A stretch of DNA of 53,091 nt, taken from the IMG/VR virus record IMGVR_UViG_3300021963_000167, positions 1 to 53,091 of that record; one strand, given 5' to 3'. The DNA is from a virus. The notes under the pieces were generated by a model. That model was given only the letters and a program-made list of their open reading frames with translations, had not been told where the DNA came from and did not search any database. The translations under genes and the position numbers were made by a program. Shown in pieces: positions 42,527-52,653 of this stretch; within the stretch, counting starts at the first letter, position 1; each line of letters begins with the position of its first letter.

Positions 42527-42554
42527 ACTACTGATGCACTTTCAGGGGCCCAGT
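42527..42554 (-). repeat. 28-nt intergenic linker, copy 1
   Basis: Exact consensus copy. On the minus strand it starts ACTGGGCCCC, has GAAAGTG in the middle and ends CAGTAGT directly before the ATG of the 58-aa gene. Flanks make a perfect 7-bp stem ACTACTG/CAGTAGT here. Confidence 0.95.
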
Positions 42555-42558
42555 AGTG

Positions 42559-42735
42559 TTAACTCAGACGGTCTTCGATATCATTGAGAACTGCAGCTAT
42601 GACCTCTGTGCTATCCTCACCGTTCTCCTCTAGTTGTTGCATTACGTCTTGCAACTGTGGTAGAATTGCGGTGACGATTTCAGGCACCCGAATCATCACT
42701 CCACTGCCCAAATTCTTATACTTTAGGGGTCTCAT
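42559..42735 (-). CDS. Hypothetical protein, 58 aa, behind a 17-bp inverted repeat
   Basis: ATG 42733-42735, TAA 42559-42561. The product starts MRPLKYKNLGSGVMIRVPEI and contains QLQDVMQQLEENGEDSTEVI, a likely helix. Not related to homing endonucleases. The ATG stands with no spacing after a perfect 17-bp inverted repeat whose loop holds a late-like promoter, so translation from longer transcripts could be blocked. Function unknown. Confidence 0.7.
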   Translation of the reverse strand: MRPLKYKNLGSGVMIRVPEIVTAILPQLQDVMQQLEENGEDSTEVIAAVLNDIEDRLS

Positions 42736-42787
42736 AGTTTTGATAGCATAACTGGGGGTATTTATGGGGGGTTATGCTATCAAAACT
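42736..42787 (-). promoter_or_regulatory. 17-bp inverted repeat with late-like promoter in loop
   Basis: AGTTTTGATAGCATAAC (minus strand 42787-42771) is perfectly complementary to the arm 42752-42736, with an 18-nt loop CCCCCATAAATACCCCCA. The loop holds CATAAATA, seven of eight late-promoter bases. The second arm ends exactly at the ATG of the 58-aa gene. Confidence 0.8.
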
Positions 42788-42799
42788 CAAAGTGCTGTT

Positions 42800-42973
42800 T
42801 TACCACCTTTCAGGGCAACTTAGGTCTTCGACATAAGCATCCACACGCTCAGCTGGTTCCAGTTGAAATAGTTTCTCCCAGTCAATCTGATGCGGGTCGA
42901 AGTCTGGAAACGCTGAAATATCCAAGGTCACTCTATAACGTACCTTCTGTGCTTGTTGAAATGCAACCGACAT
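42800..42973 (-). CDS. Hypothetical protein, 57 aa
   Basis: ATG 42971-42973, TAA 42800-42802. Starts MSVAFQQAQKVRYRVTLDIS and contains QIDWEKLFQLEPAERVDAYV. This is one of the few accessory genes with a Shine-Dalgarno sequence (AGGAG, 8 nt before the ATG). A late-like promoter lies at 43043-43050. Function unknown. Confidence 0.7.
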   Translation of the reverse strand: MSVAFQQAQKVRYRVTLDISAFPDFDPHQIDWEKLFQLEPAERVDAYVEDLSCPERW

Positions 42974-43036: not shown

Positions 43037-43050
43037 TGGGGGTATTTATG
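43037..43050 (-). promoter_or_regulatory. Late-like promoter CATAAATACCCCCA
   Basis: Identical over 14 bases to the sequence in the loop of the 17-bp inverted repeat (42753-42766). It stands 64 nt before the 57-aa gene that ends at 42800. Confidence 0.45.
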
Positions 43051-43293: not shown

Positions 43294-43319
43294 ACACAGG
43301 TATATTTTTTACGTTTTTG

Positions 43320-44336
43320 ATGGCATATATTTACTCAATCACCAACCTTGAAAGTAACAAACTCTATGTGGGTAAGACTAGCAAACCTAACCCCTATGAT
43401 AGATGGAAACAACATCTACAATTAGCAAGGAGTTTCAATAACTTACAAGAAAACAATTCTGCTCTCTCTATGCCTATACTTCGTGCTATCAGTAAATACG
43501 GAGCAGACAACTTTAAGTTTAGAGTGATTGAAGAATGTGATGATGATAAAGTAAATGAACGTGAAATGTATTGGATACAAAAACTAGAAGCAAATGGTAA
43601 GAATGGTTATAACATAACATTAGGTGGTGAAGGTATAAAGAAACCAAAAAAGTATTGGTCTAATCATCCTCATTCCAAAGCAGTAAGTTGTTATACATTA
43701 GAAGGTGAATGGATTAAAGACTATGAGAGTATAGGATTAGCAGTAGATGATGTAAGTGAAAAGAAAAAAGGTGGTCCCATTCGTGCTTGCATTAAGGGTA
43801 CAACATTTCAAGCATTTGGTTATAGGTGGAGTTGGAAAGGTGAGGAACTTAAGTTAATTGAAAAAAGAGTAAATGTTCGTGGTAATGTATATGGTATCAA
43901 TCCAACATTAGGACAAAAAAAGATGTGGAAGTCGATGGCAGATGCAGCAGAAGAAATAACTGGAAATCGTAAGAATAATGCAACTATTTCATACTCTTTA
44001 TGCAGTCCCAATCATAACAAATACCACGCTTATGATTGGTATTTTTTTAGAACAAAACCTACAAAATGGAAGGCAGCGGAGCATAAAGGATTTACAACTG
44101 AAAGTGCAAAGAAAGCAGGTAAAATAAGTGCAGAAAAAACTAAAAAACCTGTCTATGGAGTAAGTATTACAACGGGTGAAATTGTAGAGTTTGATAGCAT
44201 ATTAGCAGCTTCATATTTTATTAAAGGTGATGGAAATAAAAACGGAGTTGCTAACATTTGGAGTAACATTCAACGTATAAAGAACGGGCAAACTTGGTGT
44301 TATGCTTTTGGTTACAGATGGTATGAGAAGCAATAA
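43320..44336 (+). CDS. GIY-YIG homing endonuclease with C-terminal repeats
   Basis: 338 aa from ATG 43320-43322; a TTG three bases upstream is in frame but not needed. The N-terminal GIY-YIG nuclease shows AYIYSITN, KLYVGKTS, the Arg in YDRWKQHL and the Glu in NEREMYWIQKLEANG near residue 80. The rest holds three related DNA-binding-type units of NUMOD1 appearance: CYTLEGEWIKDYESIGLAV...FGYRWSW near 123-175 (first 19 shown), NVYGINPTLGQ near 190, and VYGVSITTGEIVEFDSILAA...FGYRWYEK near 279-337. Such free-standing genes cut sites in related genomes lacking them and spread by repair. It runs against the surrounding genes. Late promoter and inverted repeat precede it. Confidence 0.9.
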   Translation: MAYIYSITNLESNKLYVGKTSKPNPYDRWKQHLQLARSFNNLQENNSALSMPILRAISKYGADNFKFRVIEECDDDKVNEREMYWIQKLEANGKNGYNITLGGEGIKKPKKYWSNHPHSKAVSCYTLEGEWIKDYESIGLAVDDVSEKKKGGPIRACIKGTTFQAFGYRWSWKGEELKLIEKRVNVRGNVYGINPTLGQKKMWKSMADAAEEITGNRKNNATISYSLCSPNHNKYHAYDWYFFRTKPTKWKAAEHKGFTTESAKKAGKISAEKTKKPVYGVSITTGEIVEFDSILAASYFIKGDGNKNGVANIWSNIQRIKNGQTWCYAFGYRWYEKQ

Positions 44337-45592: not shown

Positions 45593-45620
45593 ACTACTGA
45601 TGCACTTTCAGGGGCCCAGT
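45593..45620 (-). repeat. 28-nt intergenic linker, copy 2
   Basis: Exact consensus core. Flanks give a perfect 7-bp stem TGATACT/AGTATCA that includes the TGA stop of the 53-aa gene before it. Followed by ATC rather than ATG. Confidence 0.95.
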
Positions 45621-46626: not shown

Positions 46627-46654
46627 ACTACTGATGCACTTTCAGGGGCCCAAT
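46627..46654 (-). repeat. 28-nt intergenic linker, copy 3
   Basis: One change from consensus (starts ATTGGG instead of ACTGGG on the minus strand). It abuts the TGA of the 43-aa gene and the ATG of the 114-aa gene, filling the whole gap. Confidence 0.95.
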
Positions 46655-46808: not shown

Positions 46809-46836
46809 ACTACTGATGCACTTTCAGGGGCCCAGT
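46809..46836 (-). repeat. 28-nt intergenic linker, copy 4
   Basis: Exact core; same TGATACT/AGTATCA flanking stem as copy 2 and the same AGTGG just beyond it, so copies 2 and 4 share about 42 bases. Followed by ATC. Confidence 0.95.
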
Positions 46837-47904: not shown

Positions 47905-47932
47905 ACTACTGATGCACTTTCAGGGGCCCAGT
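47905..47932 (-). repeat. 28-nt intergenic linker, copy 5
   Basis: Exact consensus core between the TGA of the 59-aa gene (47938-47940) and the ATG of the 55-aa gene. Confidence 0.95.
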
Positions 47933-48117: not shown

Positions 48118-48145
48118 ACTACTGATGCACTTTCAGGGGCCCAGT
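48118..48145 (-). repeat. 28-nt intergenic linker, copy 6
   Basis: Exact consensus core, 21 nt after the stop of the 63-aa gene and directly before the ATG of the 59-aa gene. Confidence 0.95.
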
Positions 48146-49272: not shown

Positions 49273-49300
49273 ACTACTGATGCACTTTCAGGGGCCCAGT
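49273..49300 (-). repeat. 28-nt intergenic linker, copy 7
   Basis: Exact consensus core, 5 nt after the TGA of the exported-protein gene and directly before the ATG of the 85-aa gene. Confidence 0.95.
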
Positions 49301-50600: not shown

Positions 50601-50628
50601 ACTACTGATGCACTTTGAGGGGCCCAGT
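50601..50628 (-). repeat. 28-nt intergenic linker, copy 8
   Basis: One change from consensus (CTCAAAG instead of CTGAAAG in the middle, shared with copy 10). It abuts the TGA of the 70-aa gene and the ATG of the 52-aa gene, filling the whole gap. Confidence 0.95.
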
Positions 50629-50841: not shown

Positions 50842-50869
50842 ACTATAGGGACACTTTCAGGGGCCCAAT
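50842..50869 (-). repeat. 28-nt intergenic linker, copy 9 (divergent)
   Basis: The most changed copy: six differences, clustered in the CTGATG part (TATAGGGA instead) and one at the outer end. GGGCCCC and GAAAGTG are kept. It is the only copy next to a homing endonuclease gene 3' end. Confidence 0.9.
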
Positions 50870-50877
50870 TTCAATCA

Positions 50878-51378
50878 TTAACGAATAAGACGATAACCTT
50901 TACAAGGCATCTGTGGATTTCTCAAGGATCTTAACATATTTCCTGATGATTTAAGACCTAAAACTTCACGACACCATTTTGTAAGATTTGTAACTTCAAT
51001 GGTTTCTCCCGTTGGTGTTTCAATAAGTCGCGTTTTTGCTTGTGAATATGCTACATTATCAGCATTACTCATCCATTCCAAGTTCTCAACCCTGTTATCA
51101 GTTTTATCCTCATTGATGTGATTAACTGTATCATAGTTGTGAGGATTTGGAATGTAAGTTTCTGCTACTAATCTATGAATACTTGTACTTTTCATTCTAT
51201 CGGTATTTTGTTCCAGAATGATTGTTAAATAACCTTTACGATTTGGTTGTGGTTTTAGTTCTCTTTTGTATGAATAATCAAGAACTTTTCCTTTACCATT
51301 TCCTCCAGATTTTTTGTGTGAGAATACTCTACCATCAGGTGTGATGGAGTATTCGGGATAGTTTGGAATGAGTTTCAT
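50878..51378 (-). CDS. HNH homing endonuclease (NUMOD4-HNH)
   Basis: 166 aa. Residues 3-20 PNYPEYSITPDGRVFSHKK match the NUMOD4 element. The HNH part shows HRLVAETYIPNP (first His near 69), VNHINEDKTDNRVENLEW (His and Asn near 85-100). A C-terminal unit TPTGETIEVTNLTKWCREVL and MPCKGYRLIR resembles a NUMOD1-type DNA-binding helix. Free-standing genes of this type cut related DNA and spread. A late promoter inside a 12-bp inverted repeat stands directly upstream. Confidence 0.92.
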   Translation of the reverse strand: MKLIPNYPEYSITPDGRVFSHKKSGGNGKGKVLDYSYKRELKPQPNRKGYLTIILEQNTDRMKSTSIHRLVAETYIPNPHNYDTVNHINEDKTDNRVENLEWMSNADNVAYSQAKTRLIETPTGETIEVTNLTKWCREVLGLKSSGNMLRSLRNPQMPCKGYRLIR

Positions 51379-51894: not shown

Positions 51895-51922
51895 ACTACT
51901 GATGCACTTTGAGGGGCCCAGT
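51895..51922 (-). repeat. 28-nt intergenic linker, copy 10
   Basis: Same single change as copy 8. Flanks allow ACTG/CAGT plus TGATA/TATCA pairing. Followed by ATC rather than ATG. Confidence 0.95.
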
Positions 51923-52032: not shown

Positions 52033-52653
52033 ATGACGAACCTTAACAGGTTTTATACTTACGCTTACTTGCGTGAAGATAGGACACCTTACTATATTGG
52101 TAAGGGAACCAGAGATAGAATATTTGCTAATAATAGAGTGACTAAGAAACCAAAAGATAAATCTAAAATAATCTTCCTTAAACAAAATCTAACTGAAGAT
52201 GAGGCATTTAAGCACGAAATCTATATGATTGATGTCTTTGGTAGAAAAGATTTAGGAACTGGTATTCTTCACAATAGAACTAATGGTGGTGAGGGTAGTT
52301 CTGGTTTTACACATAGTGAAGAAACTAAGAATAAAATGAGTCAAACTCGTAAGGGTAAAGTTCCATCTGAGGAAACAAGAAACAAAATAGGAGAACGACA
52401 GAAAGGTAAAGTTATACCAGAATATCAAAAAAATAAAATAAGTCAATCACACAAAGGAAAAAAACACTCCGAAGAAACAAAAAAGAAAATGAGCGAGATG
52501 CGTAAAGGAAGAACCTTATCAGATGAACATAAGAAGAAATTAAGCGAAAGTCGTAAAGGAATACAATACTCCGAGGAAACTAAAAAGAAAATGAGTGAAG
52601 CAAGAAAAGGAAAAACTCCCTGGAATAAAGGAAAATCTATGCCCAAGATTTAG
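52033..52653 (+). CDS. GIY-YIG homing endonuclease with NUMOD3 repeats
   Basis: 206 aa. The nuclease domain shows FYTYAYLRED, PYYIGKGTRDRIF with its Arg, and the Glu in KHEIYMIDVFG near residue 62, then NRTNGGEGSSG. Residues 95-206 carry six NUMOD3-type units, each about 17 residues (for example HSEETKKKMSEMRKG, SDEHKKKLSESRKG), then TPWNKGK. The repeats bind DNA in the minor groove in Seg/Hef-type endonucleases. It runs against its neighbours and overlaps the next minus-strand gene by 17 bases at the 3' end. Confidence 0.93.
   Translation: MTNLNRFYTYAYLREDRTPYYIGKGTRDRIFANNRVTKKPKDKSKIIFLKQNLTEDEAFKHEIYMIDVFGRKDLGTGILHNRTNGGEGSSGFTHSEETKNKMSQTRKGKVPSEETRNKIGERQKGKVIPEYQKNKISQSHKGKKHSEETKKKMSEMRKGRTLSDEHKKKLSESRKGIQYSEETKKKMSEARKGKTPWNKGKSMPKI

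Follow-up and report, generated by a model that had tools for sequence, protein, structure and literature searches.

A 17-bp inverted repeat with a late promoter in its loop precedes a stand-alone gene for a probable DNA-binding protein of 58 amino acids in the window, by which we mean the whole 53-kb virus record analysed here, from a T4-like cyanophage. We lean towards the interpretation that this control region works in two ways, namely by gating translation at the RNA level and by offering its two arms as an operator at which the protein represses its own gene. There is good support for the anatomy of the cassette, its conservation and its family relation. The existence of the RNA gate is likely in view of known precedents, and the putative operator role of the arms is supported by an unusually specific covariation between arm sequence and protein. 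Features are listed in Table 1.

Table 1 Features of the cassette and related elements in the window. Positions refer to the whole window.
Feature	Position	Strand	Remark
25-bp element GGGCCCCTGAAAGTGCATCAGTAGT	42527-42551	-	right boundary of the cassette exchanged with G001
Gene 'B' in its stand-alone form, 58 aa, probable DNA-binding protein	42559-42735	-	same as the C-terminal domain in HNH-B endonucleases of relatives
Codons 11-14 (SGVM), proposed recognition residues	42694-42705	-	xGxM with G[AC]TA[GT]C; [ED]MxI with GTTAAC
3' stem arm	42736-42752	-	GTTATGCTATCAAAACT, directly before ATG
Second proposed operator half-site, inverted	42738-42751	-	within 3' arm
Predicted transcript start	~42752-42754	-	at 3' arm; inferred from promoter motif position
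Loop, 18 nt	42753-42770	-	minus strand reads CCCCCATAAATACCCCCA
Late-promoter motif CATAAATAC	42758-42766	-	in loop
5' stem arm, 17 bp	42771-42787	-	AGTTTTGATAGCATAAC on minus strand
Proposed operator half-site TTTTGATAGCATAA	42772-42785	-	within 5' arm
Gene A, 57 aa, phrog_12516	42800-42973	-	in relatives, invariably next to the cassette on its upstream side
Further GGGCCCCTGAAAGTGCATCAGTAGT copies	45593-45617, 46627-46651, 46809-46833, 47905-47929, 48118-48142	-	
Further GGGCCCCTGAAAGTGCATCAGTAGT copies	49273-49297, 50601-50625, 51895-51919	-	variant at 50842-50866
HNH/NUMOD4 homing-type gene	50878-51378	-	same layout as 58-aa gene
Inverted repeat of HNH/NUMOD4 gene	51382-51398/51413-51429	-	15/17 arms, TATAAATA in loop, ATG 3 nt on
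Nested stem with TTATAAATAA	51952-52016	+	before GIY-YIG/NUMOD3 gene 52033-52653

The arms are complementary at 17 of 17 positions, the loop holds a motif that agrees with the late promoter of cyanophages, NATAAATA (PMC2984593), and the 58-aa ORF begins with its ATG 0 nt from the stem. Rechecking of the coordinates confirmed each of these elements as originally described. The repeat at 42736-42787 is the only perfect one with arms of at least 14 bp in the window, and 100 dinucleotide shuffles of the window yielded on average 0.05 repeats of this size and none with 17 bp, so that a chance repeat is not expected here. Folded as minus-strand RNA, the hairpin reaches -29.1 kcal/mol (z = -4.5 compared to shuffles). 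An intrinsic terminator was rejected as there is no T-run past either arm on either strand. The 3' arm contains no Shine-Dalgarno sequence, and in most forms of the cassette the ATG stands beside the stem rather than within it.

To place the gene among its relatives, viral contigs were scanned with the 58-aa protein, which gave 40 loci, and with gene A, which gave 80. Around 60 of the latter carry no such cassette behind gene A, so that it is present at this one site in some loci and absent in others. The other gene A loci carry B alone (solo B), a distant 55-aa relative that is 25-30% identical to the window protein (solo B'), or B or B' as the C-terminus of an HNH endonuclease some 140 aa long. 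Removal of duplicates left 57 distinct cassettes (32 solo B, 13 solo B', 10 HNH-B and 2 HNH-B'). The 12 distinct fused relatives occupy the same gene position and possess the same kind of hairpin, and identity of the window protein to the C-terminal domain of a fused form reaches 82%. While the 58-aa protein lacks the HNH catalytic motif, fused relatives carry an HNH domain (PF01844; E 6e-5 for L135 and about 3e-3 for two others). The HNH gene and the 58-aa gene are thus allelic forms of a single cassette that occupies one site, and the window gene is the form without the nuclease. The solo protein was found neither in the cultured phages of the collection (E <= 1) nor in the sequenced bacteria and archaea scanned. 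One HNH-B gene (L164:3001-3420, in G005) runs about ten residues beyond the usual stop (SNRNSGALKVSL), which suggests a recent change at the downstream junction.

A near relative with a 219-kb genome (G001), 87% identical to the window over 32 kb, displays a clean exchange of B for B' at the cassette. Near-identity of the two sequences extends up to and including the TTTTG of the 5' arm and resumes at the dispersed GGGCCCC element past the gene. G001 also lacks the GIY-YIG homing gene at 43317-44336 (+) and has a short stretch in its place; this gene is a recent mobile insertion.

The original prediction regarded the repeat and gene as possible remains of a lost mobile gene. Kinship with a mobile gene was borne out, as relatives have the same 58 residues joined to an HNH nuclease at this site. 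The solo gene, however, is complete, common and subject to purifying selection. All 45 distinct solos are intact, and median pairwise dN/dS values of 0.26 (solo B), 0.25 (fused B) and 0.14 (solo B') indicate that the solo protein is maintained. The term is too simple for a further reason. The HNH modules of B and B' fusions share 78-89% DNA identity, compared to 55-58% for their C-domains, which implies at least one exchange of the nuclease module, or of the C-domain, between the two types. On the C-domain tree, solo forms are intermixed with fused ones, and the solo/fused label needs 9 changes for 10 fused rows, compatible with either loss or gain of the nuclease.

The hairpin is present in 57 of 57 distinct cassettes and ends -3 to 6 nt from the ATG. 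Absence of the repeat from relatives with the same gene order had been named as evidence against the idea; every locus with the gene also has the repeat, and the many gene A loci without the cassette lack gene and repeat together. Solo stems comprise 13-20 bp and are nearly always perfect, and in 43 of the 45 solos the end of a TANATA motif in the loop lies 22-25 nt upstream of the ATG. Stem variation is limited to two positions, which change on both sides: the cores of solo B stems are GATAGC, GTTAAC, GCTAGC or GATATC, and B' stems contain GTCCC instead. Across 14 distinct B rows, 99.2% of cells were paired and 12 cells showed two-sided compensation, compared to 4.0 in shuffles and 0-1 in slid controls. 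Such covariation alone does not separate an RNA hairpin from a DNA dyad, and mismatches were too few for the asymmetry between G-U and A-C, which would distinguish selection on RNA from selection on DNA, to decide. The 3' arm also contains a mini-ORF (ATG CTA TCA AAA CTA TGA, 42732-42749, minus strand), the stop of which overlaps the ATG of the 58-aa gene (ATGA). Mini-ORFs of 4-5 codons start with ATG in 28 of the 32 solo B cassettes and with TTG in two, and do not occur in B'. The predicted late RNA would start just upstream of the mini-ORF, which may provide coupling or be a by-product of the arm sequence.

What points beyond a hairpin is the relation of the stem core to the protein. Residues 11-14 of solo B fall into two types, xGxM (19) and [ED]MxI (13), and the type agrees with the core in 32 of 32 cases: G[AC]TA[GT]C accompanies xGxM and GTTAAC accompanies [ED]MxI. 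All 13 solo B' have GTCCC arms. Since close linkage could explain this agreement, the association was tested site by site in the 28 solos that align without a shift. Cramer's V for association with the type was 1.0 at the two variable 3'-arm positions and at sites in codons 12 and 14, compared to 0.01-0.44 at the intervening sites in codons 3-10. A 19-nt loop, located between the two arms, is identical in cassettes of either type (L181, L060 and L049 versus L210, L029 and L030). In one natural swap (L045/L031), four of only 6 differences in 100 upstream bases are paired core changes, and the genes differ chiefly in codons 11-14 (PGSM to EMSI). On a tree of codons 19-58 the recognition type changed at least six times, and each time core and type changed together. 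Fused HNH forms match more loosely (e.g. L169, L076 and L135) and their arms are often imperfect, so that the claim is weaker for them. Both the conservation and covariation of the stem and the identity of the 58-aa protein with the HNH C-terminal domain go beyond the original prediction.

These observations bear on a rather unlikely alternative, in which the repeat gates RNA only. It would be a T4-style hairpin kept from the parent endonuclease gene, and the match between arms and protein would reflect shared descent or block recombination. Precedents exist in T4 (I-TevI, segB, gene e and soc), whole cassettes are swapped between sister phages at one site, which links the arms to the protein, and just two of the six independent type changes lie on well-supported branches. 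However, the loop and codons 3-10, which lie inside the putative block, do not follow the type, and the pair L045/L031 changes both arms and codons 11-14 while the loop remains constant. Moreover, stem compensation would not limit variation to two positions that track protein residues.

The form of the arms also fits a protein site. Each arm is near-palindromic (TTTTG..CAWAA), as expected for a dimer site, and in the 205- and 284-kb genomes with B and the 219-kb genome with B' no copy of the exact motif exists outside the two arms, which suggests that the protein regulates itself and not a regulon. It is by covariation that an operator-like site matching the protein type and overlapping the late promoter is recognised here. 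The quasi-palindromic form and the tracking of the protein might suggest that the arms are repressor sites flanking a late promoter and that the RNA hairpin is incidental. We consider such a pure DNA operator unlikely: endonuclease genes that are unrelated and lack such a domain share the layout of hairpin and loop promoter with other arm sequences, the arm end is held at the start codon even in a subgroup in which the arm is shifted relative to the ATG (L026), and asymmetric cores (GATAGC) are always inverted and never direct.

In the combined mechanism that we favour, early read-through RNA from upstream, where gene A directly precedes the cassette on the same strand, would fold the 17-bp stem abutting the start codon, and no translation would take place. 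Late transcription would start at the border of loop and 3' arm, which is where the usual spacing of T4 late promoters places the start. The resulting RNA would lack the 5' arm, carry a leader of about 17 nt before the ATG that is unable to fold, and be translated. Each arm (TTTTG-NTAN-CATAA; TTTTGTCCCAAAA in B') would in addition bind the gene's own protein, which could then shut off its late promoter as I-TevI does via its DNA-binding domain.

The AF2 model of B consists of helices after an N-terminal coil (pLDDT 73), and that of B' shows a strand-strand-helix-helix order (pLDDT 84). Foldseek searches of PDB and viral libraries gave no significant match, to a known DNA-binding fold or otherwise (best E about 1; CopG 1ea4 at E 3.9), which weighs against the combined mechanism, a Pfam search of the protein found no match, and a sequence search of solved structures returned chance-like matches only, mostly to helical segments. 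Size, quasi-palindromic sites and the strand-helix-helix in the B' model (E11-15, H20-35, H40-53) resemble Arc/MetJ/CopG ribbon-helix-helix repressors, although the sequence and fold match is below significance and this is a resemblance only. From size, order of elements and form of the site, our guess would be a ribbon-helix-helix-like dimer.

The closest known parallel is I-TevI of the T4 td intron, in which a late promoter lies inside a hairpin and the DNA-binding domain acts as autorepressor (PMC2988022). This analogy, drawn in the original prediction, was upheld at the level of anatomy: the loop carries the late motif, transcription is predicted to begin at the 3' arm, and the ATG adjoins the stem base. 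Shared features are the hairpin over the start region, a predicted late RNA without 5' arm, an endonuclease-type DNA-binding domain and a putative operator at the late promoter. In contrast to I-TevI, the window gene has neither a nuclease nor a sequestered Shine-Dalgarno sequence, its proposed operator consists of both hairpin arms, and specificity types vary with the arm sequence. A free-standing gene with an RNA hairpin at its start is also found in mobE (HNH, Aeh1) and segB (GIY-YIG, T4). In addition, mobE has an HNH nuclease together with a distinct C-terminal region. The window gene differs in retaining a C-terminal region only, and it is the HNH-B fusions of the relatives that truly correspond to these endonucleases. 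In T4, gene e (lysozyme) and soc are hairpin-gated late genes that do not encode endonucleases, and upstream late promoters of gene e give RNA without the 5' strand (PMC3014915). A hairpin before a non-endonuclease gene is therefore not new in kind, but gene e and soc are ordinary phage genes, whereas the window gene is endonuclease-related and its stem varies with the protein. Compared to T4-type hairpin-gated late genes in general, the stable repeat at the start and the promoter placement agree, but the Shine-Dalgarno sequence is not sequestered; the cassette would thus work like T4 gating without being a strict copy of it.

If the proposal is correct, selection acts doubly on a single 17-bp stem, as RNA gate and as protein operator, and matched swaps such as L045/L031 make the recognition code directly testable. 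It would also describe a route by which the DNA-binding half of a homing endonuclease persists as a small regulator while the nuclease module comes and goes, and give a name and a proposed mechanism to a family of 'hypothetical' cyanophage micro-genes. It may further be speculated that solo cassettes are interchangeable specificity types (GATAGC, GTTAAC, GTCCC), similar to heteroimmunity in temperate phages, and that the orphan domain, bound to operator or homing sites, blocks incoming HNH cassettes of the same type. In a lytic phage, this would amount to an immunity against homing that stems from the homing endonuclease itself. We regard this extension as distinctly improbable.

The same layout had been reported before the homing genes of the window. 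This applies to the HNH/NUMOD4 gene and, in a nested form, to the GIY-YIG/NUMOD3 gene. The resemblance is weak in the case of the GIY-YIG gene at 43317, whose TATAAATA lies across the end of the 3' arm. Five near-complete relatives (~1.0 Mb) and the window were scanned for hairpins that enclose the late motif in their loop and are followed by a start codon, and matches with a score of at least 12 as well as clear endonuclease cases were trusted. The total of 18, compared to 7 and 13 with control motifs, is not persuasive by itself, and the conclusion on a general switch rests on the strong matches. Hairpins scoring at least 12 precede solo B or B', HNH-B and other HNH genes, apart from two non-canonical exceptions with long loops (G001:153006 and G006:102747), and the weaker clear cases are again HNH genes. 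The suggestion of a general late-gating switch was not supported for these phages, as strong hairpins stand almost only before endonuclease genes and the B/B' family. Although solos lack a nuclease domain and hairpins do precede homing genes, it is highly improbable that the repeat is a functionless relic of an endonuclease gene since deleted, or a general switch independent of the gene, given the intact solos with their low dN/dS, the near-perfect stems with neither broken frames nor drifting unpaired stems in close relatives, and ordinary late genes without canonical stems of such strength in 1.0 Mb.

Stems with TAAATA-type loops were seen before three HNH genes and a possible endonuclease gene (G005:153487): G001:115243(-), G002:158370(-), G005:89542(+) and G005:153487(+). 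Control by hairpin and late promoter seems common for endonuclease genes of these cyanophages. A search of the scanned genomes for a second hairpin-gated ordinary gene yielded only weak or non-canonical matches. A 53-aa non-endonuclease gene (G001:96027(-)) lies behind a weaker stem of 9 pairs with TAAATA in the loop and is a possible second non-endonuclease case. In the window, a second late-promoter motif, CATAAATACCCCC, lies upstream of gene A (43042-43050, minus strand) and has no hairpin.

The 25-bp element at the right boundary of the cassette occurs 10 times in the window (0 expected) and often immediately precedes the ATG of a small gene. It is possibly an early promoter or leader, or a recombination hot spot, and variants such as CTTCAAAGTGGACCTATAGTGTAAGG are present in relatives.
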